A stretch of DNA of 28,197 bases from a virus, in IMG/VR virus record IMGVR_UViG_3300030328_003329, positions 1-28,197 of that record. One strand, given 5' to 3'. Positions 3,596 to 28,197 of the stretch are shown here, in pieces (position 1 is the first letter of the stretch; every line of letters begins with the position of its first letter). A program made the translations under genes and the position numbers. Under the pieces are notes generated by a model. It did not search any database. It saw nothing but the letters and a program-made list of their open reading frames with translations, and was not told where the DNA came from.

Positions 3596-3612
3596 CAATT
3601 ATTAATTATTAT

Positions 3613-3635
3613 TATATTATATTATGGCAAAAAAG
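3613..3635 (+). promoter_or_regulatory. AT-rich translation leader, copy A
   Basis: The 11 bases before the scaffold ATG (TATATTATATT) plus the first 12 coding bases (ATGGCAAAAAA...) are identical to those at 6425-6447 ahead of the 270-residue gene. A looser match extends about 12-20 bases further upstream. No Shine-Dalgarno sequence is present. It may be a shared translation initiation region, a phage promoter, or chance similarity in AT-rich DNA. Confidence 0.35.
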
Positions 3636-6344: not shown

Positions 6345-6358
6345 GCACTTATTATTTT

Positions 6359-6410
6359 AAAAGGGAGGACGGCATACACGCAAACGTTCTCCGTCTTCCC
6401 TTTTATTTTT
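6359..6410 (+). terminator. Rho-independent terminator after the major capsid gene
   Basis: A 14-base arm (AAAAGGGAGGACGG, 6359-6372) pairs with CCGTCTTCCCTTTT (6391-6404) with one G-U pair. The loop is 18 bases, with a nested ACG/CGT hairpin. A T-rich tail (TTTTATTTTTTATT) follows. It lies 15 bases after the capsid stop and would cap or attenuate the head transcript. Confidence 0.87.
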
Positions 6411-6424
6411 TATTAATTTTATTA

Positions 6425-6447
6425 TATATTATATTATGGCAAAAAAA
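6425..6447 (+). promoter_or_regulatory. AT-rich translation leader, copy B
   Basis: This is the second copy of the leader seen at 3613-3635, with identical bases from TATATTATATT through ATGGCAAAAAA. It sits 20 bases after the capsid terminator, so transcription of the downstream genes must either read through or restart near here. The promoter role is speculative; no TAnnTTTG Bacteroidota -7 element is seen. Confidence 0.35.
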
Positions 6448-7248: not shown

Positions 7249-7254
7249 TCAAAC

Positions 7255-7293
7255 TGTAGGAGCGGTCGCTCTTCGGGGCGATCGCAAACTACA
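7255..7293 (+). other. GC-rich RNA hairpin with UUCG tetraloop
   Basis: A 10-bp stem (7262-7271 with 7276-7285, two G-U pairs) is closed by the C(UUCG)G tetraloop. It is extended past a small internal loop by TGTAG (7255-7259) pairing with CTACA (7289-7293). It fills the gap between two genes and lies 10 bases before the next ATG. There is no T-run on either strand, so it is not a standard intrinsic terminator. It could be an mRNA processing, stability or translation-control element. Confidence 0.7.
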
Positions 7294-7303
7294 ATAAAAA
7301 AAT

Positions 7304-8047
7304 ATGGCAGTAATTATAAACGACGTATATCAAAAAGTATTAGCAATAGCTAACAAAGAGCAAAGAGGATATATAACTCCACAGGAGTTTAACTTATTTG
7401 CTAACCAAGCTCAGATGGATATATTTGAGCAATATTTTTATGATTTAAATCAGTTTAATAGAGTAGCAGGCAACGACATGGCTCACGCCGATATGATTGC
7501 TTTATTAAATGAAAAAATTGATCATTTTGAAAAATATAGAGCTGCTGTTGACATGAGCAATGGTAGTGGTGTTGGTATACTACCTGATTATTATAGAATA
7601 GGAAAAGTATTTTATTATGATACTGATGGTAAATATGTTGAAATAGAAAAAATAAATCAAAACGATATACATCATATTCAAAACTCTCCTTTAACAAAAC
7701 CTAACGCAACTAGACCTGTTTATGTAAGATTTTCAGCTGCCGGTGATAATGACACAAACAGAGAAAGGAGAATACAAATATACCCTGTAACAATAACGTC
7801 TAGAGTTCAGTGTAATTATATAGCTAAACCTGCCACTGTAAAATGGACTTATACTGTTAGTGATACTTATAAAGCTTTGTACAATGGTAGTGCTAGTGAT
7901 TTGCAAAATTTTGAATTACACAAATCTGAAGAAAATAATTTAGTAGAAAAAATACTTCAACTTGCTGGTATATCTACTAAAGATTCTGTACTATATCAAG
8001 CGGCTGCTGCAGAAGAACAAAAAAGCATTCAACAAGAAAAACAATAA
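7304..8047 (+). CDS. Ring/connector-type structural protein
   Basis: This 247-residue protein begins with a helical block (QKVLAIANKEQRGYITPQEF, then NLFANQAQMDIFEQYFYDL). That block resembles a family found in crAss-like and marine Bacteroidota phages between capsid and tail genes. Residues about 95-175 are beta-rich (LPDYYRIGKVFYYDTDGKY, then RRIQIYPVTI), and the C-terminus is a Gln/Glu-rich helix (LYQAAAAEEQKSIQQEKQ). In crAss-like virions, proteins from this gene block form rings between portal and tail; the same role is inferred here. It starts just after the UUCG hairpin, and only four bases separate it from the next gene. Confidence 0.68.
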   Translation: MAVIINDVYQKVLAIANKEQRGYITPQEFNLFANQAQMDIFEQYFYDLNQFNRVAGNDMAHADMIALLNEKIDHFEKYRAAVDMSNGSGVGILPDYYRIGKVFYYDTDGKYVEIEKINQNDIHHIQNSPLTKPNATRPVYVRFSAAGDNDTNRERRIQIYPVTITSRVQCNYIAKPATVKWTYTVSDTYKALYNGSASDLQNFELHKSEENNLVEKILQLAGISTKDSVLYQAAAAEEQKSIQQEKQ

Positions 8048-8051
8048 ATAA

Positions 8052-8921
8052 ATGGGATTATTAGACAATCAAACTCAACACGCTTATTATGGTGGTTCAA
8101 GCTTTGGCACTTATCAATTTACGTCACTAGAAGATATTATAAATCAATTTATTATAGCTTATGTTGGTGAAGATAAAATAATACCAAAAATTAAAAGAAC
8201 TGACGTGGCTTTTCATGCTCAAAGAGCTTTACAAGAATTGTCTTTTGATACGCTTAAATCCACAAAGTCTCAAGAAATAGAAGTACCTGCTACGCTACTA
8301 ATGGTCTTGCCGCAAGATTATGTTAATTATGTTAAATTAACTTGGGCAGACTCTGCCGGGATAGAACATGTATTATATCCAGCAATGAAAACTTCAAATC
8401 CATTAGATATTACACAAGGTACAGATGGTAGTTATACTACTGATGGTACTAATCTAACAACAGACAATACGTCTTCAACATGGGAAAGTTATAAAGCCCA
8501 CACTTCAACAACAACAACTGATGATTACGAAGATGACACGCAGTGGATTGCAGAAGGACAAAGATACGGTATAGATCCTCAACACGCCCAAAACAATGGT
8601 TCATTTTATATAGATGAACTTACAGGTAAAATACATTTTAGTTCTTTTCTTTCTGGAAAAACTGTAACCTTGAAATATATAAGCGATAGTTTAGGTACAG
8701 ATGCAGAAATGCAAGTACATAAGTTTGCAGAAGAAGCAATGTATAAAAGCATAGCGTATGCAATAATGTCAACAAAAGCTAATGTTCAAGAATATGTTAT
8801 AAATAGATTTAGAAAAGAAAAATTTGCTGCAACTCGAAAGGCAAAACTAAGATTATCAAATTTAAAATTAGAAGAATTAACTCAAATACTTAGAGGTAAA
8901 TCTAAGCACATAAAACACTAA
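8052..8921 (+). CDS. Ring/head-tail adaptor-type structural protein
   Basis: This is a 289-residue virion protein. Residues 25-105 contain a conserved core (ALQELSFDTLKSTKSQEIEV, then VLPQDYVNYVKLTW). Residues about 115-170 are a Thr/Ser/Asp-rich variable insert. Residues about 180-289 hold a conserved tail (FYIDELTGKIHFSS, then VHKFAEEAMYKSIAYAI, ending RGKSKHIKH). This layout matches a family always found beside the muzzle gene in crAss-like phages, where it forms part of the connector. The basic helical C-terminus would suit contact with DNA or the portal. The gene lies four bases after the previous one and three bases before the muzzle gene, so it is part of one translational unit. Confidence 0.75.
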   Translation: MGLLDNQTQHAYYGGSSFGTYQFTSLEDIINQFIIAYVGEDKIIPKIKRTDVAFHAQRALQELSFDTLKSTKSQEIEVPATLLMVLPQDYVNYVKLTWADSAGIEHVLYPAMKTSNPLDITQGTDGSYTTDGTNLTTDNTSSTWESYKAHTSTTTTDDYEDDTQWIAEGQRYGIDPQHAQNNGSFYIDELTGKIHFSSFLSGKTVTLKYISDSLGTDAEMQVHKFAEEAMYKSIAYAIMSTKANVQEYVINRFRKEKFAATRKAKLRLSNLKLEELTQILRGKSKHIKH

Positions 8922-8924
8922 TAT

Positions 8925-11900
8925 ATGCCAGAAATAAAGCACAACTTTTCTCAAGGTAAAATGAATAAAGACCTTGACGAAAGACTGGTTCCTAATGGAC
9001 AGTATACACACGCAACTAATGTTCAGGTTTCAACATCTGAAGATAGTGATGTTGGTACAGTTCAAAGTTTATTAGGTAATAGTGCAATACCAACGGCTAG
9101 TGCGACAACAATGTCTACAGCTGGGGTTTGTATTGGCTCTGTTGCTGATGAACAAAACGATTGTGCTTATTGGCTTATTGCAAGTTCTAATGTATGGGAC
9201 AATAGTGCCCCATCTTCTATTACCACATACAAAGACGTTATATACAAAACAGAATATGACTCTTCAGATAATACACACACCACTACCCCTGTCTTTATTG
9301 ATTTTTATTCAGAAAAACATCCTTCAAGCGCTTTGTCTAGCTGGGTGGGTAGTTCCACATATACTTCTTTTAATACAACAACAACAAATCTTTCGACAGG
9401 TATGTACGCTATTTTTGTTACATCTGTCGCTGGTAGAAATAATGAAGTTAGAAAAATAACAAAAAGTAGTAATACAATTAGTTTTGATGCTATTGATTAT
9501 AATTCTTGGGATTACATAGACTTTTCTTGGTCAAAACCTGATATTAACAATCCTTACGATTATAATTCTAATCAAAAAAAATCTAGGGTATTGCGTTTTG
9601 ACAAAAGTAAATTAATAACAGGTATTAATATTATAGATGATTTATTATTTTGGACAGACGATAATTCAGAACCTAAAAGAATAAACGTAGCTAGATCAAT
9701 AGAGGGTACAGACGCTAGTAAATTAAATAAAAACACAAGAATTGTTTTAAGCAAAAGAGATATAGGAATAGATGATGATGTTTTTGTAAAAGAAGAAGAC
9801 ATTACTGTAATTAAAAAAAGTCCAAAAAAAGCACCTATTTTAGATATAAAAAGCGGTATAAGATCTGGTAATATAACTGTAAATAGTACTATTGATTTAA
9901 GTCAAAAACAAATAGGTAGTATTTTTGAATTTACTACAGATTTAAATTCTAATTACAAATCAAATGACATTTTAGTTTTTGCTAATGGTTTTACACCAAC
10001 TATAACAAATAACCATGCTAGAGTTAGGGTAATATCTATTAGCAATTTAACCGTCAAAGTTGTAATTTTAACTTTAAGTCCTAACGCCCCAACCTCTTCT
10101 GTTCTTTACAAAATTTGTTTAGAAGAAGATGCTAAAATAATTTTTAAAGAAAAGTTTGCAAGATTTGCAACAAGATGGAAATATGCTGACGGGGAATATT
10201 CAAACATATCTCCTTTTTCAGAACCAGCTTTTGGTACTGGAGATTTTAATTATAATCAAATTAAAGGATTTAACTCAGGAATGGTTAATACTTTAAAAGA
10301 ATTAATTATAGAAAAATTTATTCCAAAAGAAATACCTAAAGAGGTTGTTCAAATAGATATATTATATAAAGAGTCAGACTCTCCTGTTATTTATACTGTT
10401 GATAATATTTTTTATGATTCAACTTCGTGGAATACTACTGACGTAAACTTGGATTACCAAGGAACATATACAATTAGTTCTGAAAACATATATTCTGCCA
10501 TATCATCTAATCAAATACTAAGACCTTTTGATTCTGTTCCTAAAAAAGCATTAGCACAAAGTATTGTTGGTAATAGAGTTGTTTATGGAAACTATATTGA
10601 AAACTATGACATTAACAACGGAGAAGGTTCGGTTATAAAGCCAAAAATAAATGCTTTTATAAATTTTAGAACTCAACTTTCAAGTGAAATACTACAAAAC
10701 CCAGGATTATCCCAAGCAGACGGTCCTTCTAGTGCTCAAATACCTAATTGGAATCATGATTATGTAAGCGGAGCTAGAAATGGTTGGATAACCAATTGGA
10801 TTAGCACAAGTATAGGTGTAAAAGGTTTTAAAGAAAAAGATACTGGTGGTGTTGATAGTTTTATGAAAATTTGGCAAGGGGTTGAGTTAGAAGATGACGA
10901 AACTTATGTAGTTTCTATTCGATTAAATAATTATACGCAGGGTAATATTAGACTTCATTTAGTAGGTCCTACAAAGAGCGATAAAGTTGATATTAATCCT
11001 TTAACTGTAACAGGTGATATGATTGGTGTTCATGAGTTTGAATTAACTTTAAGTAAACTTAATACTACTGAAAATACTGAAAGTTTTTATACAGATTCCA
11101 AAAACTTTATGATTCAAGTAGTACCTATTACAACAACTGACGCTGATACATACGGCACTTTGCTTCCATTTAAAGGCCAAATAACCGGTTTTAGTCTTAA
11201 AAAATCAACTGAAGCTAAAAATAAATCTATAAAATCACAAAGAACATATCAACTTGGCGTGGTATATGCTGATGAGTTTGGAAGACAAACTCCAGTTTTA
11301 ACAAGTGAAAACTCTTCGATTGAAGTTCCAAAAATAGATTCTAGTAATATAAATGCTATAAATATTGAAATTGATAGTACTCCTCCTGAGTTTGCAAATT
11401 CTTTTAAATTTTTTGTAAAAGAAACTTCTTCGGAGTATTATAACTTAGCAGTAGATAGAATATATGAGACTATAGATGGTATGGCCTGGTTGTCTTTTCC
11501 TTCTAATGAAAGAAACAAAGTGGATGAAGAAACTTACTTAGTATTAAAAAAACAACTTAACGGTCAAGCTGTTATTAGCGAGTCTTCTACGTATAAAATA
11601 ATTTCTATAGAAAATGATACCCCTAGTTTTCTTAAGCAGTCTAGAAAAGAGTTAGGTACTGCTAACGGTTCGTGGTCTTCCTCGGGGTCTTTAAACGGCG
11701 TGTTTACAAATGTAAACTATAGACCATCTGAAGATCAACAGGTTTTAAAAATAGAAAAAGATTTATGGATTAACGAAGAAAATGGAGCAGAACTAGAAGG
11801 GTATAGCGATTTAATTTTACAATTTGAAAGTGGTAGTGTAAAATCAGGCTGGCTTAAAGCAGACGCTGTTGATTTATCTTCAGACAATAGGTACTACATA

Positions 11901-14900
11901 CTACACTTGCATTCTCCAATTTTAGAAACTGATTCTGGTTGGATTATGAGTGGTTCAAATTTTAGTTCTGGCGTGAGTGTAACTGTAGCTCATTATGATA
12001 GCGATAGTAGACCTGAGTTTGATGGAAAGTTTTTTGTTAAAGTTCAACTTGATGGTGACTTAAAACAATTTGTTCAACAGCAAGCGATATTAGATCAAGA
12101 CAGTTTTGGTATAGCCGCCCAGTCACGATCTTGGTATGTCTCAGATGATAATGCCTATAATGTCGCGCCTGGAGCTGGGACAGCTTCAAGATTCCAAAAA
12201 GATTCTGCTAGTAGTGGTAATTATGTACAAGGCAGCAGTGTTAAAGCCTATACTTTTGATCAGAATTTATTTGATATACACCCGTTTAAAGAACAAGTTA
12301 CTTTTACAGACACTACTTGCAATATAACAGATACATCTCAGACAATTCAACACACCGCCAACGCTAACATTCAGCCCTATTGGCATATTTCCGGGCCTGG
12401 CATTCCTCTTAATTCTTTTGTTTTAAGTATTACGGACGACAACAATTTTGTATTTACTCAATACGGCACAACTGACACTAGTAGTAGCGTCAGCGCTCCT
12501 GATCCTGTAGGTGCTGATGGGAGTTCAAGTGGCGCGAGTGTAGTTTTTACAAGATGGTTTGATGACAAGGGTGATAGTGGTTATAACGCTGGTAGAGGTG
12601 CCGCTGCTCTTCGCGGTACTTCAACTCCCACTTTATATATGTCACAGTCAGCCGTAAGAAACTGGGGTAGAATATTAAAGTTTTTAAAATATAGTAGTTG
12701 GACTTATCAAAATATACCTAACAACGACGAGGCCAGAAGAAACTTTTTTATAGACAAGGTGCGTTATGTTGGTATACAACCTTTGAACAACAATAAGCCA
12801 CATGACGGGCTTTACACAGATCCTGGTCATTTTGATCATCGCCAGGGACAGAGATTACAGCGGAACTCAGATCCAATTAGCACAACAAATGGCGAAGGTT
12901 TAGCAGGTACATCACTTTTACCACGGTATGGGAGAGGTATTTTTACAGCAACAGGAAATGAAAAAGACATAAAAGATCAGCCTGATCACTTCTTTACAGC
13001 AGGCAGGAAATACATGGAGCTTTCTTATGCTAAAATTTGGGCAGAATCTTCTTTAATGAATATACCTCAAGACGTAGCTGGTGAAGAAAGTTCTTACGCA
13101 ACAGCTTGGAATGTTGGTAAACCTACAAACACAAACCATGTTAACGAAACTGAATTTGTTTCTAAAATCAAAGTAGGTTCTAGATTTAGATTTTCTGGAG
13201 ATCCTAATGAAAAAGTGTATCAAATTACCAATGTAAAACAAGAAAGAAGATACAACCATACGGTTTATCCTGGTGGAAATGGTAATTATTTAATAACAAT
13301 AGGAAAATGGGGGGATGGTGGTACTGGCACATTAGCTGATGGTTGTCCAATTAGACCTGATGACAAGGCTACAAAGCGTACAAAATTTGCAATCGTTGCC
13401 GATGGTGATACTACTAACCGTTTCCGAGCTGGAAAATCGACTGTATATGCTGACGGGAGTCCTAATGATCCTTGGACGAGTAATAGAACTATAAACCGTG
13501 ATAAAACAATACAAGATGAAAGAGCTAGATTTGGCCTTGCTACAAACAGAAGGATAACTTGGATTATTGAGTATGAAGACGTAACAGTGACACAGTCTGG
13601 TAATGTTAGTCCAGATTACAACCCTGTTAACGAGACCACAGGTAAAGGCGTGACTGGTACTGGTACTGATAATCTTATGGATGAAGTAAATAGTCAATAT
13701 ATTGAATTTGTAGAACCTTCTTTTGACGCGGAAAATCAATTAATATCAGATGATCCTGCTGTTTTTGAAACTCAACCAAAAACTAGTGAAGGTTTAGATA
13801 TTTATTATGAGGCTAGTGATTTTATTGACATTAACGACCATAACAGTATACACGAACTACCTTGGTTTAATTGTTATAGCTTTGGTAACGGTGTTGAGTC
13901 AAATAGAATTAAAGATGATTTTAACCAAGTGTTTGTTGATAAAAATGCTATAGTATCAACTACATCGCAAGGTGAATACGAAGAAAACAGAAGAAAATAT
14001 GGTTTGATATATTCTGGTATTTATAATTCTAAAAACGGTGTTAACAACACAAATCAATTTATTGCTGCGGAAAAAATAACAAAAGACATAAATCCAGAAT
14101 ATGGTAGTATACAAAAAATATTTGCTAGAAATTCTGATTTATTAACTCTTTGTGAAGATAAAATATTAAGAATACAAGCTAACAAAGACGCGTTGTTTAA
14201 CGCCGATGGAAATGTTAACGTAACAGCCACGTCAAATGTTTTAGGACAAACAATACCTTTTGTAGGAGATTATGGTATATCACAAAACCCAGAGTCATTT
14301 GCAAGTGAAGCTTATAGATGTTATTTTACAGACAAACAAAGAGGCGCTGTGCTTAGATTGTCAATGGATGGTTTGACACCTATATCTGATTATGGAATGA
14401 GTGATTGGTTTAAAGATAATTTAAAACCGGCCACAGAAATTATGGGTACTTATGATGTTAATAAAAAAGAGTATAATGTAACTTTAAAACCAGGTGAAAG
14501 TAGCACAAACTATACGGTTTCTTATAGTGAAAAAGTTAAAGGTTGGTCTAGTTTTAAATCATTTATACCAGAGCAAGGAGTGAGCGTTTCAGGCAACTAT
14601 TATACTTTTGCAAGTCAAAGTGGTAGCGCTAAGGTTTGGTGGCATCACCAAGGTTTGCCTTTAACAACTGAAGACGGTATTGAAGCTAAAACTGCAAACA
14701 ATTTTTATGGTACTCAATACTACTCCGATATTACAACTGTATTTAACGAAGAGCCTAGTATGATAAAAACTTTTAAAACCTTAAATTACGAAGGCACACA
14801 GTCTAAAATACACCAAAATACAGGCGATACTGAAAATTATTATAATTTAGTAGAAGATGAAGGTTGGTATGCAGAGACTATAACAACAGACAAACAGACT

Positions 14901-15053
14901 GGTAGTATAAATGAGTTTATAGAAAAAGAAGGCAAATGGTTTAATTTTATAAAAGGCGATACAACTTATTATACCACTGCTACTGACAACAATTTAGATA
15001 CAAGTGAATTTACGGTGCAAGGATTAGGTAAAATAACAGCAGAAGATATATAA
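8925..15053 (+). CDS. Muzzle / tail-stabilisation-type protein, 2042 residues, with inserted domains
   Basis: This very large tail protein probably forms the distal tube or muzzle of a short tail. The N-terminus (KMNKDLDERLVPNGQYTHA, then NVQVSTSEDSDVGTVQSLLG) is a strong signature of this family in crAss-like and marine phages. Later family blocks are RTYQLGVVYADEFGRQTPV (about 773-791), PEFDGKFFVKVQLDGD (about 1030-1045) and EAYRCYFTDKQRGAVLRLS (about 1790-1808). Two stretches break this core. Residues about 583-765 look like a jelly-roll, carbohydrate-binding-type domain. Residues about 1065-1580 are encoded by DNA of clearly higher GC. The central parts are beta-rich, as expected of a propeller-like tail protein. 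No cleavage site or enzyme motif is seen. The overall call is fairly sure; the inserted-domain functions are not. Confidence 0.78.
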   Translation: MPEIKHNFSQGKMNKDLDERLVPNGQYTHATNVQVSTSEDSDVGTVQSLLGNSAIPTASATTMSTAGVCIGSVADEQNDCAYWLIASSNVWDNSAPSSITTYKDVIYKTEYDSSDNTHTTTPVFIDFYSEKHPSSALSSWVGSSTYTSFNTTTTNLSTGMYAIFVTSVAGRNNEVRKITKSSNTISFDAIDYNSWDYIDFSWSKPDINNPYDYNSNQKKSRVLRFDKSKLITGINIIDDLLFWTDDNSEPKRINVARSIEGTDASKLNKNTRIVLSKRDIGIDDDVFVKEEDITVIKKSPKKAPILDIKSGIRSGNITVNSTIDLSQKQIGSIFEFTTDLNSNYKSNDILVFANGFTPTITNNHARVRVISISNLTVKVVILTLSPNAPTSSVLYKICLEEDAKIIFKEKFARFATRWKYADGEYSNISPFSEPAFGTGDFNYNQIKGFNSGMVNTLKELIIEKFIPKEIPKEVVQIDILYKESDSPVIYTVDNIFYDSTSWNTTDVNLDYQGTYTISSENIYSAISSNQILRPFDSVPKKALAQSIVGNRVVYGNYIENYDINNGEGSVIKPKINAFINFRTQLSSEILQNPGLSQADGPSSAQIPNWNHDYVSGARNGWITNWISTSIGVKGFKEKDTGGVDSFMKIWQGVELEDDETYVVSIRLNNYTQGNIRLHLVGPTKSDKVDINPLTVTGDMIGVHEFELTLSKLNTTENTESFYTDSKNFMIQVVPITTTDADTYGTLLPFKGQITGFSLKKSTEAKNKSIKSQRTYQLGVVYADEFGRQTPVLTSENSSIEVPKIDSSNINAINIEIDSTPPEFANSFKFFVKETSSEYYNLAVDRIYETIDGMAWLSFPSNERNKVDEETYLVLKKQLNGQAVISESSTYKIISIENDTPSFLKQSRKELGTANGSWSSSGSLNGVFTNVNYRPSEDQQVLKIEKDLWINEENGAELEGYSDLILQFESGSVKSGWLKADAVDLSSDNRYYILHLHSPILETDSGWIMSGSNFSSGVSVTVAHYDSDSRPEFDGKFFVKVQLDGDLKQFVQQQAILDQDSFGIAAQSRSWYVSDDNAYNVAPGAGTASRFQKDSASSGNYVQGSSVKAYTFDQNLFDIHPFKEQVTFTDTTCNITDTSQTIQHTANANIQPYWHISGPGIPLNSFVLSITDDNNFVFTQYGTTDTSSSVSAPDPVGADGSSSGASVVFTRWFDDKGDSGYNAGRGAAALRGTSTPTLYMSQSAVRNWGRILKFLKYSSWTYQNIPNNDEARRNFFIDKVRYVGIQPLNNNKPHDGLYTDPGHFDHRQGQRLQRNSDPISTTNGEGLAGTSLLPRYGRGIFTATGNEKDIKDQPDHFFTAGRKYMELSYAKIWAESSLMNIPQDVAGEESSYATAWNVGKPTNTNHVNETEFVSKIKVGSRFRFSGDPNEKVYQITNVKQERRYNHTVYPGGNGNYLITIGKWGDGGTGTLADGCPIRPDDKATKRTKFAIVADGDTTNRFRAGKSTVYADGSPNDPWTSNRTINRDKTIQDERARFGLATNRRITWIIEYEDVTVTQSGNVSPDYNPVNETTGKGVTGTGTDNLMDEVNSQYIEFVEPSFDAENQLISDDPAVFETQPKTSEGLDIYYEASDFIDINDHNSIHELPWFNCYSFGNGVESNRIKDDFNQVFVDKNAIVSTTSQGEYEENRRKYGLIYSGIYNSKNGVNNTNQFIAAEKITKDINPEYGSIQKIFARNSDLLTLCEDKILRIQANKDALFNADGNVNVTATSNVLGQTIPFVGDYGISQNPESFASEAYRCYFTDKQRGAVLRLSMDGLTPISDYGMSDWFKDNLKPATEIMGTYDVNKKEYNVTLKPGESSTNYTVSYSEKVKGWSSFKSFIPEQGVSVSGNYYTFASQSGSAKVWWHHQGLPLTTEDGIEAKTANNFYGTQYYSDITTVFNEEPSMIKTFKTLNYEGTQSKIHQNTGDTENYYNLVEDEGWYAETITTDKQTGSINEFIEKEGKWFNFIKGDTTYYTTATDNNLDTSEFTVQGLGKITAEDI

Positions 15054-17075: not shown

Positions 17076-17912
17076 ATGGCAATAGGTTTAATTAAAAAAC
17101 AAATAATACATAGTTCTGGTAAAAACAGTTCTCCTACACGTTTTTTTGCAGGTAGTGGAAATAGAAAAAGATTAGCAGATGCAAAGGCAGTGTTTGAAAC
17201 AGAAATGAACAAATATAGAAATACAACCTTTACAAACCCATTTTCTGAAAATGTTTACGCCAATATGAGTAATCAATTTGAAGATTTAACTGTTAATCAA
17301 AAACAAGCTAATCTTGAAGGGCAACTAAATCGACAAAGCGAAGCTAATGTGCTTGATGCAATAAGAAGTGGTGGTGACTTTAACGTTGGTAATATACAAG
17401 CCTTAACTAACCAAAGCCAAATAGCAAATCAAAGAATCTCGGCTAATATTGGCCAACAAGAAAGTGCAAATCAAATTGCCGCGGCTCAAGAAGCCTCAAG
17501 ACTTCAAGAGCTAGAGGCTAAAGGGGAGTTACAAGTTCAGACTGGAGAGCAACTTTTACAGCAACGAGAATTTGACAAACAATCAACACTGTTAGGTATG
17601 TCAATGGAGCAAGTTTCAAACGCTGAAGAAGCTATTGCGGCTAATAAAGCAATGTGGGGTAATATTGTAGGTGGTGTTATTGGTTTGGCAGCGTTGAGTG
17701 ATAAAAGATTAAAAAAGAATATTAATTTAATTGGTCAATCACCTAGTGGTTTAAATATATACAGTTTTGAATATAAAAACTCTATGTACGGAAAAGGATT
17801 GTTCCAAGGCGTTATGTCTGACGAGGTTCCATCAACAGCGGTAGTAAAAGGTGTAGATGGTTATGATATGGTAGATTACAATATGTTAGACGTACAATTT
17901 AAACAAATATAA
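17076..17912 (+). CDS. Coiled-coil virion protein with short C-terminal S74-type self-cleaving chaperone domain
   Basis: Residues about 40-190 are a Gln/Ala/Asn-rich helical region (NQRISANIGQQESANQIAAA), like internal virion proteins of podoviruses. Residues 193-207 are a hydrophobic, Gly-rich stretch (MWGNIVGGVIGLAAL). Residues 208-278 begin with SDKRLKKNI and contain YSFEYKN, GLFQGVMSDEVP and DYNML. This matches the intramolecular chaperone of endosialidase (peptidase S74) family, in which the chain is cut between the Ser and Asp of the SD-RLK motif; here that is S208/D209. The domain is short (71 residues) compared with those of endosialidase tailspikes. Cleavage would leave the hydrophobic stretch as a new C-terminus. 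The S74 call is confident; an internal or membrane-entering role for the N-terminal part is inferred. Confidence 0.8.
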   Translation: MAIGLIKKQIIHSSGKNSSPTRFFAGSGNRKRLADAKAVFETEMNKYRNTTFTNPFSENVYANMSNQFEDLTVNQKQANLEGQLNRQSEANVLDAIRSGGDFNVGNIQALTNQSQIANQRISANIGQQESANQIAAAQEASRLQELEAKGELQVQTGEQLLQQREFDKQSTLLGMSMEQVSNAEEAIAANKAMWGNIVGGVIGLAALSDKRLKKNINLIGQSPSGLNIYSFEYKNSMYGKGLFQGVMSDEVPSTAVVKGVDGYDMVDYNMLDVQFKQI

Positions 17913-19283: not shown

Positions 19284-22200
19284 ATGGGACCATTTAGCTT
19301 ATACAATACTTTACTAAACGAAGGACAGTTTGAAGGAGGCTTTGACAAGTTTAATATGAAAATGTCAAAAAATTTTTACAAAGATCCTGAAACAGGTGAA
19401 ATGAAAAGTTATAGAAAAGAAGTGTTTGACTATATTTCTGACCCTAGCTCTTTAGGTATTGTAGATTATAACACTGGTACTTTGACTCCTGCTCCAAAAA
19501 CTTTTGAAGAGTTTGAAGACACTTATTACACCACACAAAATGATTCTCATTTTACAGTAGACGATGGCCCAGTGTTTAGTCTTAAATCAATACCGCTTAA
19601 TAAAAAAGGTGGATATAAAGTAAACTCAACAGCGTATAGTTTTGTTCTTGACGAATCTGGATTTATAACACCTACTAAAGACTTAGAAGTTTCAGAAACA
19701 GAATATGATTTGTTTAGCATGTTTACTCAACAAGTAGAGTCTAGCGATTTTTTTGACGTAGGCCCAGCCAAAGTAACAGTAAATAAAAAGTTGTTTGGTA
19801 ATGTTGAAGACGAAGAGTTTTCTGATGAGCTTTCTTTAATGTTTCCTGAGTTTAAATTTGAACCTCTTAACCTAAGAACAAATATAGAGTATGACAAAAC
19901 TTGGCAAGGTAGTAAAGGTTCCAAACTACCTTACCAGCCAGATGACAAAGCTATTTTTACTAAAAAACAAGCTGTAAAAGTTACTTCACCTGACGGTGAC
20001 TATGTTGTTATTGAAGTTAATATTGAGGATAATAGAATGCCTCTTCTTAGAGATCCTAATAAAAGCTCAGGCTTTAACATTTCACCTATGGATGGTGAAA
20101 AAATCCCTTCTAAAGAGTCTATAAATCAAAGTATAGAAAAAGCTTACTTACAATCATACACAGACTTAACTTCTTTTCTCGAAAACAAACTTCAAGATGA
20201 ATCTATTTTAGAAGGCAATCTTAAAAAATTAACGCTTAATAAGCAAAAAAGTAGAATTGCTTACGAAAAATATAGAAAATTTTTTACACCTATAATAGCC
20301 GCTGTTCAAGAAGAATATAATAAGCCTGATTTATTTGATCCTATAGAAAAAGGAGTTTATGGTGTAGATAAAAGTATTCCAAACCAGCCTGTTAAAAAAA
20401 TTTTATACGAACAGCCTTTTGAAAAAGAACTAAAAGAAAACTATGATTTTTTAATAAAGAAAAATAAAGGTGGCCCAGTTTCTCAAAAACAACTTCACGA
20501 TTTTACAAGAAAAAAATTAATTAGCGACGAGATTTATAAAAGAAAACAGGCTAAAATAGAAGAAATTCAAGAAAATATTGAAGACGGCGAAGTACCTATT
20601 GGTTTTGAAGAGTATCAAGATGATCCAAAAATGCTAACCGCGGTATTACAACTTGGTACTAAAGAATACGTTAGAGAATATGTTACAAAAAAGAATTTTT
20701 TAGCAATTGAAAATAATTTTCAAAATGACAGTAAAATAGCTAAAAGATACCAATCAACAAAAAATAAAATAGAAGATCCTGCTTTTGAGTTTGAAGTAAA
20801 AGAAGGCGAAACATATTATTTGATAAACGACAAAGAAATACCTGAGGGTGTTTTTAATCAATACAAAAAAGACTTAAACGCTATAATAAAAAGTTATGAG
20901 TTTTCAACAAAACTTACAAACGATATATTAGATAATTATGAAAACGTACAAGACACTGATTTAGTTTTAAACTTAATTGGTAGAGATTACAATGATTGGA
21001 ACAAGTTTAAAGCAACCACACAGATAGCATACGCTAATATATTTGGTGGTAATTTATATGCTTTAACTGAAAGCGAGGAAGGTATTGCTAGATACGTTGC
21101 GCAAAGAGACGAAATAAATAGAAGACTTAATAAATACGCTCCAAATGTAGAGTTTGACGATGCTTTTGGTAAAGGTTGGGATCAGTTTGGTAAGTTTGTA
21201 ACTCAAGAAATATCAAATCAACTTGCTGTATTTACAGCACTTGCAATACCAAAAGTTGGTTTAGGTATTTTAGGTGCTAGTAGTTTTAGTGAAAATTACG
21301 GTAGAATGACTTTAGAAGAACTAGACTCTAAAGGAGCAATAGACCATAGTACTTGGAAAAAAACATACATCTCTGCTGGATACGCTATACCTGAAGTTAC
21401 AATAGAATATTTCACTACATTACCACTTCTTAGGGGTGCTAGAAACTCACTAAACAATATGTATGGACCGCAAGCAAGAGATTATGTTAGAAGAGGTATA
21501 GACGATGTAGTTACGGAAGATTTGCCAGTATTTGTAAAAGGTGCTGGGCTTGGTACAGGTGGTGAAGGATTAACTATGGTAATACAAAATCTTGTTTTAG
21601 GAAAACCTTGGGATGAGAATGTAGATCACGCTTTATTTTCAGGGTTTATGTTTGAAACAACTTTAGCGTCTGTACCGTTAATTAAAGGTGTGGCCGTAGC
21701 TAGTCTTTCTGATTTTGACAAAACACAAGATATTAGACAAGATATTGAAACAAGAAACAATTTACTTATAGAAAATGCTAATTTAAACGCAAAATACAAC
21801 GACCCTGCATATCAAAAAAATAAAAAGCTAAAAGATTTATTACAAAAAAGAGAAGCAGACAATCAAATTGCTATTGATGAATTAAGCAAAAAAATTGAAG
21901 ACGCTATAGCTGAAGATACAAAAAGCGTTCAAAGCATGGATAAAGACGCTTATCAAGGTTATACAGTGGTGACTAAAGAGCAAGAAGAAATTAGAGTAAA
22001 AGCAAAAGCTATTATTGAGAATAAGAGCATACCAGAGTCTCAAAAGAAAAAAATGCTAGAAAAGCTTAAGATAGATTTTGAATTTAAACAATTTGCTAGA
22101 AACGAATTTAAAAAAGAAAAGCATAGTAAATTCCATAGTTGGGCTGGTCAAAACAAAAATAAAAAGTCTTTTGAAGAGTTAAAAAAATTAGCTGAGCAAG

Positions 22201-25200
22201 AGCTTAGACAAGGTAGTTTTAGAGTTGGCTCGGTTATAAAAGAACCTACTGAATCTGAAATATACTCTCATGCAAAAAGCATTTGGAATGCAAAGGAAAT
22301 AAATAAAAATTTAAACAAGGCTAAAAAAGATGGTTTATTAGAAGATAATTTAGTTGTGTTTCAAAGCGTTCAAGAGTATGAAGAAAAATCTAAAGAAAAA
22401 AACAAAGACGGTAAGCTAAAATATCCTGAGTTAGAAAAACAATTAACAAAAATTAAAAACGGTGCGCACGGTTTTGACAACGTTACGACTGAAAAATCTT
22501 ATATAGTTATAGAAAATATGGCTAAAGATGATCGTCTTGAAGTAAAAACCCACGAGCTTGGCCATAGACTTTTAGGTAATGTTATAAGTAGAAATAGCGA
22601 TGCTTTTGCCCCATTAAGCATTGCTGTTTTAGGTTGGGCAGAGCAAAACGATACAGGTTTGTACAATAGACTTAGAAGAAGGTCTATTGGTGGTGCAGAC
22701 GAAGTAATATCTGTATTTTTAGAAGAAGCAGCGGCTGGTAATGTTAATTTAGAGCAAGATAACATTGGTGGTGTGTTTGGCTTTATGGCTAGTAATGTTT
22801 TAAAAGATAATCATGGTATTGATTTAAATTTAGGAGGCCAAGTAGATGCTATAACGATGCTTGTTAGTCTTGGTAAAAAGCTTAAAGCTGGTACTTTAAC
22901 TATTAAAGACGTTAGAGATTTAGAGTCTAGAGAAGATATTAAAGCTCTCAAAAAATATGGTGAAACTATAGACAAAATTGACACTGCAGATAAAATGTCT
23001 GAAAGATCAGGCGCTGTTGAATCAGTTAATAAAATAGAGCAAGAATTAAAATCTAGATTAAAAAATCAAAACAAAGAATATACTAAGGCGGAGTTTCAAA
23101 AAAGTCCAGAGTTTAATAATTTGTTTGAATCAATAAGTTTAAGTGGTGGCGCTGTAAATAACTATATTAGAAGTCTTGGTATGAGTGCTGCTAAAACAAA
23201 GGCTACTATAGAATCTGCTAGTAATAGATTAATGAACTATAATCCTCAAGCTGAAAGAAAAACTAAAACAGGTGAAAGCATAACTATTGGTGAGGCTATA
23301 ATGGCTAACATAGGTTTTGCTAAAAAAGACGCCGCTAAAAAACTATTTAAAAGAGGTCAAGAGCAAAAAAGAACTAGAGCTATTGAGGAAAAAGACGCCA
23401 ATATAGAAGATACACAAACCACAACTCAAGAGTCAGAAGTTAAAGACGTTAAACTTAGAAAACTAAAAGATTTTAATGTAGAGCTAGACAATGGCTTAGC
23501 AGATGCTTTAACTGTAACTGCTGTTAATAATTTATTAAATGATTTTAATAGTGGTAAAATAACTTTTGAACAAGCTCAAAAACAAATGGATATACTTGTT
23601 CTTAAAGATATAAGAGCTAAATTATCTGAAACAATACCTAAAATTGCAAAAAATAAAAAGACTGGAAAAGTTGAACCAACAGCTGAATATGAAGCTTTTA
23701 TTAGAGATGAATATGACGAAATTGTTGCTAGCTTAGGTATTAAAACTATTAGAACGTCTTACAAAAAGTGGTTTAAACAAGAAAAAACAGGCAAAAAAGA
23801 TTATAAAACTATTAACCCTGAAACTGGCAAAGTTAGTAATTATGTAAAAGATACACAAATAAATACAACTAACAAACGTGAATATATAAGATGGTTTTTA
23901 GAAGGTAAGCCAAATGATTTAAGAGAAAGAAGAACTGCCTTAATAAGACGTATTGCAAAAAGAAAAGCAAGTTTAGCTGTTGATAGCTATATTGACGAAA
24001 ACTCAGATAATTTAGAAGCTGTTGTAAAGTCTAAAATGAGAACAATGTCTGATAGCGCTCAAAATGCTACTGATGAGCAAGTAAGTTTTGACGCTGTTAA
24101 ATTTTCTGAAAAAGTTTCTGCAAACTACAATAGGATTAATAAAAAAATGGAAAGTTTTGGTCAGTACGAAGCGCCAGACGGTAGCATAATGACTTTTGCT
24201 ATGAAGAAAAACGGCAATTGGGATCATGGTAGAGCTTTTGAACAAGCTTACAACGAGGCTTTGCAAGAAATTGTAAAACCTATAAAAGGTTTTAATATTG
24301 ATTCTTTAGTTGCAAAAGAAAAAGGTGGGTATGCTGATATAGTTTTTACTTTTCCTGATGGAAAATACGAAAACCACGAAATAAAACAAACACCTAGCGC
24401 TAGAATGGGTAGTGTTAAGTTTACAAAACTTAACCTTGAAACAGGTGAGTATGTATTGGCAAATCCAGCTCATAAAAACATACCAGGTTTAGATAAAATT
24501 GTTAAAGAGGCTATAAAAGTTGCAAGGCAAAAAATAAAACAAATAAATCAATATAACAACGAGTATAACGAAAAATATGGTTATAAAAAAGGAGATCCAG
24601 AGTTTGCAGATCAAGTAACTGGTAACGAAAGATTTTGGATCCCTGCAGAAGTTGATGATAGAATGTCTGGTAGACTTATTGATCCTAATACAGGTAAAAA
24701 AGGTTTAGGCAAAACCCTTGTTAAAAAAGTTGTACAAGGTAGAGATGTTATAGCAAATGGCTACGAAAATAAAAAAATAATTATAGATAAAAAGAAAATA
24801 GATGCTCCAGTTAGATCTATAACATATGGAGGCTACGGTTCTTTTAGGCTAAGTGAACTGTCTAAGTTTACAGGTTTACCATTACTAGACGTAGACGTTG
24901 AAGTTAGGGCTAGTCTACGTAACTCAAGATCTGTAGATAATTATAGAGGAGGGAAAGTTAAATTTAGAGATAAGTTTATAGGTATAGAGTTTTATCTTTC
25001 TGGTAAAATAAAAAACGAGCCTAACTCTGGTATTACAACAACAGAAAGTTTTATGCAAGCTACAGGCGCGCCAGCTTTTTCTCAAAACATAGGTAACGCT
25101 GAAAATTTAAATAAAGCGGTAAATAATTCTAGAACAAACAAATATTCTGAGTCTTCACGAGGTATAACAATATTAGATTTTGACGACACGTTAGCCACAA

Positions 25201-27704
25201 CAGAATCTTTGGTTAAATTTACTAGACCAGACGGTACAACTGGTACTTTGAACGCCGAAGAATATGCTAGAGATTATCAAGGCATGTTAGAACAAGGATA
25301 TAAATTTGATTTTTCAGAATTTAATAAAGTTGTAAAAGGTAAAATAGCGCCATTATTTCAAAAGGCACTAAAACTACAAGGTAAGTTTGGTCCTGAGAAT
25401 ATGTTTGTGTTAACAGCTAGACCACCACAAGCTGCTATTGCTATATTTGATTTCTTAAAAGCTAACGGCTTAAATATACCTTTAAAAAATATAACTGGCC
25501 TTGCTAATTCTACTTCAGAAGCTAAAGCACTTTGGATAGCTGATAAAGTTGGTGAAGGCTTTAATGATTTTTATTTCGCTGATGACGCGTTGCAAAATGT
25601 GCAAGCAGTAAAAAATATGTTAGAACAATTTGATGTAAAATCAAAAGTACAACAAGCAAGAGTTAAGTTTAGCGAAAACGTGGATAATCAGTTTAATGAC
25701 ATATTAGAAGATATTACTGGTATAGAATCTAAAAAAAGATTTTCAGCTGTTAAAGCTAGAAAACGTGGAAAAAGTAAAGGTAAATTTAGATTTTTTATAC
25801 CACCTTCACACGAAGACTTTGTAGGGTTATTATACAACTTTATAGGTAAAGGTAAAAAAGGAAATGCACATAGAGATTTCTTTGAGCAAACTTTAATTAG
25901 ACCATTGAATAGAGCATATAGAGAGTTAAATACAGCCAGACAATCTATAGCTAATGATTATAGATCGTTAAATAAGCAGTTTGAAAATGTTAAAAAGAAA
26001 TTAAACAAAAAAACTCCAGATGGTGATTTTACATATCAAGACGCTATTAGAGTGTATTTATGGGATAAACATGGTTACAATATACCTGGGTTAAGCAAAA
26101 AAGACCAACAGGGTTTAGTTGATTTAATTACACAAGATTCAGAGTTACAATCTTATGCTGAAGCATTAAATATTATATCTAAAAGAGATAATTATGTAAG
26201 CCCTTCAGAAGGGTGGGAGGTTACAGACATAAGAATGGATCTAGACGATGCCACTGGTAGAATTGGTCGAGAAGAGTTTTTTACTAAATTTACTGAGAAT
26301 GCTGATATAATATTTTCACAAAAAAACTTAAATAAAATAGAGGCTATTTACGGTCCTGACATGGTTAGCGCTATTAAGGACATGCTGTATAGGATTAAAA
26401 CTGGTAGAAATAGACCTAGTGGACAAAATAAAATTGTAAATGGGTTTATGAATTGGTTTAATAGTTCTGTTGCGGCTACCATGTTTATCAATGTAAGATC
26501 CGTAGTGCTACAGCAAATGTCTTTAGTAAACTTTATAAATTATAGCGACAATAACATGATAGCGGCGGCAAAAGCCTTTGCTAATCAAAAACAATATTGG
26601 GCTGATTGGGCGTTTTTATTTAACTCTGATTTTATGAAACAAAGACGTGGTGGAATTAAAACGGATATTAATGGGGCTGAATTAGCAGAATCACTAAGGG
26701 GCGCTAAAAACAGTCCAGTAGTGTTATTAGGTAAACTACTAGAAATGGGGTTCAAACCAACACAAATTGGGGATAATGTTGCAATTGCAACTGGTGGAGC
26801 TACTTATTATAGAAATAGAATAAATACATACTTAAAGCAAGGGTTAAGCAAAAAAGAAGCAGAGGCAAAAGCGTTTATTGATTTTCAGGTATTAGCTGAG
26901 GCCACACAGCAATCGGCAAGGCCCGATCTAGTTTCGCAACAACAAGCGTCATCACTTGGAAAAATAATATTGGCTTTCCAAAATGTAACTTCTCAATTTA
27001 ACAGATTAGGTAAAAAAGCGTTTTTAGATCTTAAAAACAGAAGAATAAGTCCTGAATATAGAAACGCAAGTAATCCACAATTACAAAGCGATATATCTAA
27101 TTTGTCAAGAATTGCTTATTATTTTGCAATACAAAATTTAGTATTTGCCACTTTACAATCAGCATTGTTTATGGCTATGTTTGATGATGATGAAGATGAT
27201 AAAAAGTTACTAAAGAAAAAAGAAAGAGCTATTAATCAAAGTATTGATTCTGTTTTAAGAGGTACTGGTGTTTGGGGAGCAGTTATTGCTACTTTAAAAA
27301 ATATGGCTATTAAGCGTTTTGAAAACGAAGGCAAGGAATGGAGAGCTAATGAGTATAGCGTGCTAGCAGAAGCGTTACAAGTTTCTCCACCTCTTGGCGC
27401 AAGAGCTAGAAAATTAGTTAAAGCTGAAAGAGATCTTATTTGGGATAAAGATGCTATTAGTGAAATGGAGATTTTAGATATTGAAAATCCATTTTGGCCA
27501 GCTGTAACAAATTATATTGAGGGAACAACCAATGCACCTCTTAATAGAATTTACAATTTAACACTTCAAGTTAAAGACGGGTTAGACAACCAGTTTAAAG
27601 CTCTCCAAAGAGTTTTAAGAGTTGGTGGTTGGGGACGATGGGATCTTGGAATTGAAAATGAAAGTGACAAAATAAAAAGCTTTAAAAATAATAGAGCCCT
27701 TTAA
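19284..27704 (+). CDS. Giant polyvalent virion protein: zincin-like, PD-(D/E)XK-like and HAD-like domains with conserved C-terminal region
   Basis: This 2806-residue protein fills 30% of the window. Residues 1-640 are charged and mostly helical. Residues about 640-810 contain several apolar stretches (VFTALAIPKVGLGILGASSF). At 1090-1094, HELGH is the zinc-binding motif of zincin metallopeptidases, with E1147/E1148 as a candidate third ligand. At 1653-1701, E1653, D1685, E1699 and K1701 (HEIKQ) fit a PD-(D/E)XK nuclease core. At 1963-2105, LDFDDTLA (D1965, D1967), LTARP (T2044) and FADDALQN (D2100, D2101) are HAD phosphatase motifs. Residues about 2380-2650 match a conserved region of giant phage proteins (IGDNVAIATGG, then SARPDLVSQQQASSLG) and include a likely membrane segment at 2610-2633. 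Such multi-enzyme chains are known as polyvalent proteins thought to be injected with phage DNA. The motifs are seen directly; activity and injection are inferred. Confidence 0.85.
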   Translation: MGPFSLYNTLLNEGQFEGGFDKFNMKMSKNFYKDPETGEMKSYRKEVFDYISDPSSLGIVDYNTGTLTPAPKTFEEFEDTYYTTQNDSHFTVDDGPVFSLKSIPLNKKGGYKVNSTAYSFVLDESGFITPTKDLEVSETEYDLFSMFTQQVESSDFFDVGPAKVTVNKKLFGNVEDEEFSDELSLMFPEFKFEPLNLRTNIEYDKTWQGSKGSKLPYQPDDKAIFTKKQAVKVTSPDGDYVVIEVNIEDNRMPLLRDPNKSSGFNISPMDGEKIPSKESINQSIEKAYLQSYTDLTSFLENKLQDESILEGNLKKLTLNKQKSRIAYEKYRKFFTPIIAAVQEEYNKPDLFDPIEKGVYGVDKSIPNQPVKKILYEQPFEKELKENYDFLIKKNKGGPVSQKQLHDFTRKKLISDEIYKRKQAKIEEIQENIEDGEVPIGFEEYQDDPKMLTAVLQLGTKEYVREYVTKKNFLAIENNFQNDSKIAKRYQSTKNKIEDPAFEFEVKEGETYYLINDKEIPEGVFNQYKKDLNAIIKSYEFSTKLTNDILDNYENVQDTDLVLNLIGRDYNDWNKFKATTQIAYANIFGGNLYALTESEEGIARYVAQRDEINRRLNKYAPNVEFDDAFGKGWDQFGKFVTQEISNQLAVFTALAIPKVGLGILGASSFSENYGRMTLEELDSKGAIDHSTWKKTYISAGYAIPEVTIEYFTTLPLLRGARNSLNNMYGPQARDYVRRGIDDVVTEDLPVFVKGAGLGTGGEGLTMVIQNLVLGKPWDENVDHALFSGFMFETTLASVPLIKGVAVASLSDFDKTQDIRQDIETRNNLLIENANLNAKYNDPAYQKNKKLKDLLQKREADNQIAIDELSKKIEDAIAEDTKSVQSMDKDAYQGYTVVTKEQEEIRVKAKAIIENKSIPESQKKKMLEKLKIDFEFKQFARNEFKKEKHSKFHSWAGQNKNKKSFEELKKLAEQELRQGSFRVGSVIKEPTESEIYSHAKSIWNAKEINKNLNKAKKDGLLEDNLVVFQSVQEYEEKSKEKNKDGKLKYPELEKQLTKIKNGAHGFDNVTTEKSYIVIENMAKDDRLEVKTHELGHRLLGNVISRNSDAFAPLSIAVLGWAEQNDTGLYNRLRRRSIGGADEVISVFLEEAAAGNVNLEQDNIGGVFGFMASNVLKDNHGIDLNLGGQVDAITMLVSLGKKLKAGTLTIKDVRDLESREDIKALKKYGETIDKIDTADKMSERSGAVESVNKIEQELKSRLKNQNKEYTKAEFQKSPEFNNLFESISLSGGAVNNYIRSLGMSAAKTKATIESASNRLMNYNPQAERKTKTGESITIGEAIMANIGFAKKDAAKKLFKRGQEQKRTRAIEEKDANIEDTQTTTQESEVKDVKLRKLKDFNVELDNGLADALTVTAVNNLLNDFNSGKITFEQAQKQMDILVLKDIRAKLSETIPKIAKNKKTGKVEPTAEYEAFIRDEYDEIVASLGIKTIRTSYKKWFKQEKTGKKDYKTINPETGKVSNYVKDTQINTTNKREYIRWFLEGKPNDLRERRTALIRRIAKRKASLAVDSYIDENSDNLEAVVKSKMRTMSDSAQNATDEQVSFDAVKFSEKVSANYNRINKKMESFGQYEAPDGSIMTFAMKKNGNWDHGRAFEQAYNEALQEIVKPIKGFNIDSLVAKEKGGYADIVFTFPDGKYENHEIKQTPSARMGSVKFTKLNLETGEYVLANPAHKNIPGLDKIVKEAIKVARQKIKQINQYNNEYNEKYGYKKGDPEFADQVTGNERFWIPAEVDDRMSGRLIDPNTGKKGLGKTLVKKVVQGRDVIANGYENKKIIIDKKKIDAPVRSITYGGYGSFRLSELSKFTGLPLLDVDVEVRASLRNSRSVDNYRGGKVKFRDKFIGIEFYLSGKIKNEPNSGITTTESFMQATGAPAFSQNIGNAENLNKAVNNSRTNKYSESSRGITILDFDDTLATTESLVKFTRPDGTTGTLNAEEYARDYQGMLEQGYKFDFSEFNKVVKGKIAPLFQKALKLQGKFGPENMFVLTARPPQAAIAIFDFLKANGLNIPLKNITGLANSTSEAKALWIADKVGEGFNDFYFADDALQNVQAVKNMLEQFDVKSKVQQARVKFSENVDNQFNDILEDITGIESKKRFSAVKARKRGKSKGKFRFFIPPSHEDFVGLLYNFIGKGKKGNAHRDFFEQTLIRPLNRAYRELNTARQSIANDYRSLNKQFENVKKKLNKKTPDGDFTYQDAIRVYLWDKHGYNIPGLSKKDQQGLVDLITQDSELQSYAEALNIISKRDNYVSPSEGWEVTDIRMDLDDATGRIGREEFFTKFTENADIIFSQKNLNKIEAIYGPDMVSAIKDMLYRIKTGRNRPSGQNKIVNGFMNWFNSSVAATMFINVRSVVLQQMSLVNFINYSDNNMIAAAKAFANQKQYWADWAFLFNSDFMKQRRGGIKTDINGAELAESLRGAKNSPVVLLGKLLEMGFKPTQIGDNVAIATGGATYYRNRINTYLKQGLSKKEAEAKAFIDFQVLAEATQQSARPDLVSQQQASSLGKIILAFQNVTSQFNRLGKKAFLDLKNRRISPEYRNASNPQLQSDISNLSRIAYYFAIQNLVFATLQSALFMAMFDDDEDDKKLLKKKERAINQSIDSVLRGTGVWGAVIATLKNMAIKRFENEGKEWRANEYSVLAEALQVSPPLGARARKLVKAERDLIWDKDAISEMEILDIENPFWPAVTNYIEGTTNAPLNRIYNLTLQVKDGLDNQFKALQRVLRVGGWGRWDLGIENESDKIKSFKNNRAL

Positions 27705-27725: not shown

Positions 27726-28197
27726 ATGAAAAAACTAATTATATTATTATTAATAACTTTAATTTCTTGTGCAACACCAAAAGATTGTTGTTCGCAAGTA
27801 AACTTAAAAAAATTATTTAAATTTTCTACATTTTATGCAGCTGCTAATGGTGGTACATCTATATCAGATGTTGAAACTTTTTCAGTTACAAACGGGCTTG
27901 AAACAGCTACAATACAAACTCCATACGATTACAATTTGTCGCTTGGTATACGTAAAATAGCTAGGTTTGGATATGAGAATAGAGCTCAAACATTTTACGA
28001 TGGTACTGAAAACTCTTGGAGTGATGGTGCTAATGTAGGAAAAGTAAAAGGATTAGAATTTTTATTCGAAGTAGATTACAAAAGACAACAAGGTAATGAA
28101 TATTTAGATCAGCATCACTTTATAAGATTTGTTGACGACAAATACATTCTTAAAGGTGAGTATTTAGAAGATGGTTTTGCAGACATTAAATACTTTG
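27726..28197 (+). CDS. Predicted phage-encoded lipoprotein (partial, cut by right edge)
   Basis: The frame is open from ATG 27726 to the end of the window (157 codons). The first 14 residues (MKKLIILLLITLIS) are a lysine-plus-hydrophobic signal peptide, followed by C15 in a lipobox (LISC, then A), so signal peptidase II processing is predicted. Ala at +2 agrees with outer-membrane sorting. Two more Cys follow at 21-22. The mature part is beta-rich (FSTFYAAANGGTSISD, then YDYNLSLGIRKIARFGYEN, then GLEFLFEVDYKRQQGNEYL) and looks like a conserved protein of marine phages whose role I do not know. It starts 21 bases after the giant gene, so it is late-expressed. It might alter the host surface, block superinfection as the T5 Llp lipoprotein does, or help release; none is shown. 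Confidence 0.72.
   Translation, partial: MKKLIILLLITLISCATPKDCCSQVNLKKLFKFSTFYAAANGGTSISDVETFSVTNGLETATIQTPYDYNLSLGIRKIARFGYENRAQTFYDGTENSWSDGANVGKVKGLEFLFEVDYKRQQGNEYLDQHHFIRFVDDKYILKGEYLEDGFADIKYF

Follow-up and report, generated by a model that had tools for sequence, protein, structure and literature searches.

The window, meaning the whole stretch of DNA analysed here, is an entire linear virus record of 28,197 bases. Its genes begin with TerL (cut at the edge) and the portal, continue with a capsid-block series, a virion structural protein of 2042 aa and a set of smaller ORFs, and lead up to a giant ORF. The sequence-only reading had described this ORF as a single intact frame within the capsid gene block, and both points hold: the frame is unbroken from the ATG at 19284 to the stop codon that ends at 27704 (2806 aa, translation table 11), and TerL, portal, capsid and several head/virion structural families lie upstream of it on the same strand. 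Searches of Pfam, PHROG, NCBIfam and PDB sequences with the whole protein returned no match, and tblastn of the whole giant against an annotated phage collection found no matching phage. The parts of the giant are listed here, with its four joints given further below.

19284..27704, + strand: giant ORF of the virion block (2806 aa), whose C-terminus is shared by 82 relatives
21105..22043, + strand: Gly-rich hydrophobic N-terminal module, residues 608-920, common to phi38:1/phi40:1 gp101
21222..21278, + strand: most hydrophobic segment of the giant, residues 647-665 (1.85)
22326..22910, + strand: zincin metallopeptidase domain, residues 1015-1209 (76-sequence alignment)
22551..22565, + strand: HELGH, residues 1090-1094, invariant HExxH in the 76-sequence alignment
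22701..22703, + strand: E1140, probable third zinc ligand, invariant (76/76)
23004..24098, + strand: exchangeable helical module X, residues 1241-1605; first half at pLDDT about 90
24111..24575, + strand: PD-(D/E)XK-like payload, residues 1610-1764, with D1685, E1699 and K1701
24588..25082, + strand: low-confidence stretch before the HAD domain, residues 1769-1933, pLDDT under 50
25152..25664, + strand: HAD phosphatase domain, predicted T4 Pnkp 3'-phosphatase-like, residues 1957-2127, pLDDT about 90
25677..27701, + strand: conserved all-helical C-terminal backbone module, residues 2132-2806 (42-85% identity, 73 sequences)
27126..27182, + strand: conserved hydrophobic segment, residues 2615-2633, after which comes an acidic patch

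Elsewhere in the window, the 2042-aa virion structural protein (8925-15053) exceeds its PHROG profile (1474) by ~570 aa and matches it in five stretches, and a 278-aa ORF (17076-17912) ends in a stretch resembling Peptidase_S74 (SDKRLKKNI...; below the Pfam cut-off at E 0.022). Positions 3001-4000, at the start of a 398-aa ORF between the portal and the capsid protein, have a strong AT skew (0.43) and a composition that differs from the rest. The ORF 3' of the giant (27726-28196) has a lipoprotein-like start (KKLIILLLITLISCATPKDCCSQ); a similar lipoprotein-like gene (KKLIILLITVVLVACSAPKKCCSQ) directly follows the giant at the related locus L034.

Phage affinity and probable virion location

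The portal and capsid proteins were compared with the phage collection by tblastn at 1e-5. Matches were confined to Flavobacterium, Cellulophaga, Tenacibaculum and Maribacter phages and one unclassified record, and no crassvirus or Crassvirales match was obtained at this threshold. Judged by these two proteins, the nearest isolates are Maribacter phage Panino and the related Elemovirus, Pachyviridae and Pervagoviridae, and we infer a marine, flavobacterial-type phage with a Bacteroidota host. A crAss-like affiliation, to which the sequence-only reading had alluded, was dropped, as portal and capsid match only other phage groups. The resemblance to the Crassvirus cargo proteins gp45-gp50 (PMC10172136), which are virion-stored and thought to be ejected, is restricted to that of large cargo encoded in the capsid block.

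The giant is probably a virion protein, as the sequence-only reading had supposed; this assignment draws on homology and synteny with gp101 of phage phi40:1, a protein annotated from experimental MS/MS. In the Cellulophaga phages phi40:1 and phi38:1 (Callevirus, Pervagoviridae), gp101 is, like the giant, the last gene of the structural block, has a homologous Gly-rich N-terminal module, and bears a hydrophobic stretch and an acidic patch near its C-terminus. Unlike the giant, it is 1691 aa long, contains neither HExxH nor HAD, and has a C-terminus that is not detectably related. A family HMM of the N-terminal module recovered phi38:1 gp101 at 1.7e-20 and both phi46:3 gp120 and Panino CDS0069 at about 9e-11, and reversed decoys gave nothing below E 1; in tblastn with the window N-terminus the Callevirus gp101 proteins also rank first, weakly (E 0.04-0.06).

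A second counterpart is the giant 'structural protein' of Elemovirus (QMP85251, 3694 aa), which occupies the same position and has a homologous zincin (HMM E 5.7e-8). It differs from the window giant by the presence of DUF3293, and C-terminal homology and the joint motif were looked for in it and not found. The zincin HMM also matches the giant of ctfjg026 (2e-5). One syntenic giant (L014, 10229-15718; Panino CDS0069) is annotated as a tRNA methyltransferase; HMM and position suggest a virion giant instead.

Enzymatic domains and terminal modules

The sequence-only reading had placed protease-, nuclease- and phosphatase-like domains in one frame. For the zincin and the HAD domain the support is strong, whereas the PD-(D/E)XK type is indicated only by its motif and predicted strand order.

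HELGH at residue 1090, already pointed out in that reading, is the only HExxH in the giant, and shuffled copies yield such a motif at 0.006 per copy. In the 76-sequence alignment of the zincin domain, where mean column identity is 15%, the sole invariant columns are H1090, E1091, H1094 and E1140. These residues, H, E, H and a later E, amount to the complete HExxH+E metallopeptidase ligand set, and on the alignment the zinc site is complete. The domain is modelled at pLDDT 55-83, and the fold-search rows did not reach it. Against PDB sequences, the wider profile A3 matched aureolysin (E 0.0059) and thermolysin (0.22); the zincin-only profile A8 gave nothing useful and did not recover aureolysin, which leaves the zincin fold a candidate one. 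An apparent subgroup of zincins has HDxxH, in the forms FHHDAFH, IHHDGLH and FHHDILH (L021, L042, L047).

The HAD motifs read earlier between 1965 and 2101 are likewise present: DFDDT (1965, motif I), TAR (2044-2046) and DD (2100-2101) are invariant in the first five proteins of the family. In a structure model of residues 930-2129 the HAD domain reaches pLDDT about 90, and a fold search ranks T4 Pnkp first (VIA, 5uj0_B: Z 13.6, rmsd 2.5, 127 aligned). The best seven rows are T4 Pnkp or bacterial Pnkp1 (Z 12.5-13.6) and the next HAD scores 11.4, a margin of 1-2 Z units; in predicted fold, the domain is closest to the T4 Pnkp 3'-phosphatase.

In three relatives (L050, L073, L094) HAD motifs I and II are 275 residues apart, as against the usual 76, with an inserted P-loop kinase between them (AAA_33: 5.7e-13, up to 49.8 bits, cut-off 27; Pfam Zeta_toxin: up to 39.4 bits, cut-off 22.3). 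The combination of HAD and kinase recalls polynucleotide kinase-phosphatase, and the kinase-bearing relatives may have that function. They depart from T4 Pnkp in that the kinase sits inside the HAD domain and is not fused in front of it, and the phosphatase role is a predicted one. The same insertion site holds an ART-PolyVal-like insert in L039 (PF18760; E 0.0011, below cut-off); across L050, L073, L094, L039 and L074, the sequence at this site after motif I varies between a P-loop kinase, an ART-like domain and a Pro-rich stretch.

The E-D-ExK pattern of the payload, reported earlier at 1653-1701, is also there, and D1685, E1699 and K1701 are kept in all five of the most similar payloads when these are aligned; about a dozen other payloads have similar D...ExK patterns. 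The predicted order of elements is helix, three strands, helix, at pLDDT 50-72, and the fold-search list was taken up by HAD chains. We describe the payload as PD-(D/E)XK-like, a putative nuclease assignment that is not proven.

A conserved hydrophobic segment near the C-terminus, described before as membrane-like near 2610, is real: its 19-residue Kyte-Doolittle mean at 2615 is 1.45, and it lies inside a conserved 35-residue helix. It is not the strongest such segment, however, as residues 647-665 (1.85) had been overlooked. The C-terminal 696 residues are predicted by AF2 to be all-helical (pLDDT 80, pTM 0.79). Against solved structures, the best Foldseek hit had E 0.06, TM-scores were at most 0.16 and the best VIA Z was 5.1; assignment to a known fold was therefore dropped, and a new fold is not thereby proven. 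Homology of the C-terminus to the giants of isolates was likewise dropped, hhalign and HMM having found nothing.

Several unrelated enzymatic features, the zincin, the HAD domain and the PD-(D/E)XK-like motif, thus share one polypeptide encoded among late virion genes, in agreement with the polyvalent-protein character proposed before. In Iyer et al. 2017 (PMC5512222), polyvalent proteins are large, multidomain virion-block proteins with zincins and nuclease- or ART-like modules, and autoprocessing and injection are proposed for them, as in our reading of the giant. The N4 virion RNA polymerase and P1 DdrB, which we liken to the giant from their description in that text, are also virion proteins with a zincin (PMC5512222). 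The window giant differs from these polyvalent proteins in that its Pnkp-like HAD is fixed to a conserved helical C-terminus and that Pfam, PHROG and NCBIfam profiles fail to match it. The polyvalent class is already known; what is new is the joint code, together with the conserved backbone and its Pnkp-like HAD.

A conserved backbone and exchangeable modules

Four relatives were found in IMG/VR with the full protein. A C-terminal profile found at least 450 among the first 600 candidates, from which 80 loci were kept; the family set comprises 83 giants, namely 82 IMG/VR relatives and the window protein. They range from about 980 residues, in a giant cut by its contig end, to 3829. HExxH and HAD occur together in 76 of them, and three more (L021, L042, L047) have HDxxH instead.

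From the HAD domain onward (~880 residues), identity among the first five proteins is 65-86%; for the set as a whole it is about 45% or higher. In the phages of the first four relatives, portal identity is 75-79% and capsid protein identity 59-75%, a divergence like that of the C-terminal backbone. The conserved backbone is the HAD domain together with the ~680-aa all-helical C-terminus. Upstream of the HAD, similarity stops: across the set, 13 clusters are seen for the payload and 15 for the N-terminal region. Among 43 pairs whose HAD and C-terminus are 80-90% identical, the payload is common to 9, module X to 7 and the N-terminus to 12. This low sharing of the upstream modules turns what had been described as one fusion into a constant backbone with exchangeable modules. 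The region from zincin to HAD is a chain of swappable modules, and the HAD belongs to the C-terminal backbone, two properties that the sequence-only reading had missed.

Module X of the window protein is 43-47% identical to that of L044, L048, L029 and L061, and most relatives with similar C-termini have another version. A Pfam scan of 76 payload regions gave scattered single matches only. In L003 (7586-8185), and also in L053, L036, L032 and L041, module X contains NYDPKKGKFSTHVYNNIAP and resembles sigma-70 region 2; the best PDB profile match of this type is a sigma factor (E 0.026), Pfam gives no sigma-70 match, and we treat the sigma-70 reading as a lead only. At L034 the Gly-rich N-terminal module lies on a separate ORF (5145-6455) that slightly overlaps the giant (6443-12649), as a natural split or a frame error.

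Joint peptides and candidate self-processing

Four short peptides stand at the module borders of the window protein.

22992..23003, + strand: joint 1 motif KMSE (1237-1240), candidate processing site, in a low-confidence linker of the model (1222-1242)
24099..24110, + strand: joint 2 motif KFSE (1606-1609), candidate processing site, inside the low-confidence linker 1596-1612
25140..25151, + strand: joint 3 motif KYSE (1953-1956), candidate processing site
25665..25676, + strand: joint 4 motif KFSE (2128-2131), candidate processing site

Visual inspection of the first five proteins had shown KFSKS before an unbiased k-mer count over the variable part flagged KFSK, FSKS, VKFS and MFS. Enrichment was scored as observed versus expected occurrences of [KMRQSTN]FS[KRSETQDN]. 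The pattern was found 19 times versus 3.2 expected at joint 1 (100-175 residues after HExxH), 45 versus 8.4 at joint 2 (450-650 after HExxH), 35 versus 4.0 at joint 3 (just before the HAD) and 50 versus 5.3 at joint 4 (just after the HAD), where the motifs are partly one inherited site. At the ends of the protein it stays near expectation (N-terminal 41 versus 27, C-terminal 34 versus 34). Control motifs were mostly unenriched; the exception, xLSx at joint 1 (30 versus 5.6), we read post hoc as a variant of the joint motif. These joint windows were set after the first-set data had been seen, and the check consisted of eight MAG-derived proteins of the same family, fetched once the pattern was fixed, in which the pattern occurs 16 times versus about 3.1 at the joints and at background elsewhere.

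A broad form of the motif, with F, L, Y or M, is present at all four joints of the window protein and likewise in 13 of 76 proteins; its hydrophobic position (n = 192) is F in 126 cases, L in 40, Y in 17 and M in 9. Other ORFs also show a slight excess of the broad form (215 versus 141), so that only the strict form, [KRMQ]FS[KR][ST], is specific, and the four sites of the window are of the broad form. The strict form occurs 62 times in the giants versus 2.0 expected and is absent from the 378 other ORFs (164 kaa) encoded at the fetched loci. Sixty of the occurrences belong to proteins in which both landmarks are present; two of these fall in the C-terminus, and neither the HAD, the zincin nor the region upstream of the zincin contains any. 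Two of the four window sites fall in stretches of pLDDT below 50, which adds little because a third of the model is below 50. A module with a PWCL signature brings its own KFSKSHR-like motif, before the payload in L005, L031, L049 and L052 and after the HAD in L048.

Because modules are flanked only on the far side of the protease, we read the joint peptides as putative polyprotein processing sites, with the zincin as their candidate enzyme. Thermolysin-like enzymes favour a hydrophobic P1' residue, and the hydrophobic motif position (F, L, Y, M) fits that preference. A joint-specific peptide motif thus backs the earlier suggestion that the giant may be cleaved by its own protease. We regard as evenly poised the reading that the giant is a polyvalent virion protein of a podovirus-like Bacteroidota phage in which the zincin cuts the chain at the joints and frees payload and phosphatase. 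A broader proposition, to which we give marginally less than even credence, is that the giants are self-cutting tailed-phage polyproteins whose zincin would cut at a common peptide code to free exchangeable effector cassettes, such that any code-flanked module could be added to the virion cargo.

A model of self-cutting can be drawn, in which we infer the cutting, its timing and its substrates. The Gly-rich N-terminal and helical C-terminal modules would be the constant ends, with probable roles in packaging and membrane passage, and between them would lie the zincin, then the exchangeable modules and the Pnkp-like HAD phosphatase. The zincin would cut at [KRMQ]-[FLYM]-S-[KRE]-[ST] around each module, with the bond N-terminal to the hydrophobic residue as the likeliest point, and would thereby free two separate enzymes, the nuclease-like payload and the phosphatase, either ahead of entry or immediately after it. 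Once free, the phosphatase would remove 3' phosphates from nucleic-acid ends that host defence, or the phage's own nuclease, had produced; on the structure model, the giants point to a possible virion-delivered nucleic-acid-end repair enzyme in abundant marine Bacteroidota phages. That polyvalent proteins are cut by their own zincins was proposed by Iyer et al. in 2017, in a paper whose passages on cleavage give no consensus for the cut sites and describe no joint motif (PMC5512222); the family of 83 supplies a concrete peptide code and joint positions. If self-cutting is true, the processing of polyvalent cargo becomes open to mass spectrometry and in vitro cleavage, with fragments predictable from sequence.

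Precedent exists for both outcomes, P1 DdrB being cut before packaging and the N4 RNA polymerase not, as described in the same paper (PMC5512222). The giant could, like the N4 enzyme, which has a zincin and is packaged unprocessed, act uncut in the virion; the joint motif would then be a flexible linker, or a peptide that docks onto a partner such as the capsid, the portal or a chaperone, and the zincin would attack host proteins. In favour of this, six giants with HExxH have no motif at the scored places, and two of the three HDxxH members (L021, L042, L047) retain it. No correlation was found between motif presence and catalytic-site status among the giants. We nevertheless consider action as an uncut chain rather unlikely, given that the strict motif lies almost only C-terminal of the protease and at module borders, and that a docking peptide would be needless at every module flank.

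Zincin self-cutting also has to be weighed against cleavage of the joints by another protease, a phage prohead protease or a host enzyme, with the zincin having a separate target. In the Salmonella phage SPN3US, head proteins, ejected ones included, are matured by the prohead protease gp245 (PMC10052503). Prohead proteases typically have several head proteins as substrates, however, and the 378 other ORFs contain no strict motif; we hold a foreign protease to be improbable.

The motif might, finally, have no function in the protein and mark DNA-level joint sequences, that is, recombination points for module exchange. Modules are exchanged freely, and one 12-mer, AAGTTTTCTAAA, was seen 12 times, but the 73 sites are encoded by 42 different 12-mers. 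We think a DNA-level recombination site very improbable, and codon use argued against it as a candidate: the motif serine is encoded by both TCN and AGY as in the rest of the genes (AGY 38%, matching the gene background), and the excess of the AAG lysine codon at the motif also appears in other KF pairs. Background serine codons and an AAG bias shared with other KF pairs point to selection on the peptide.
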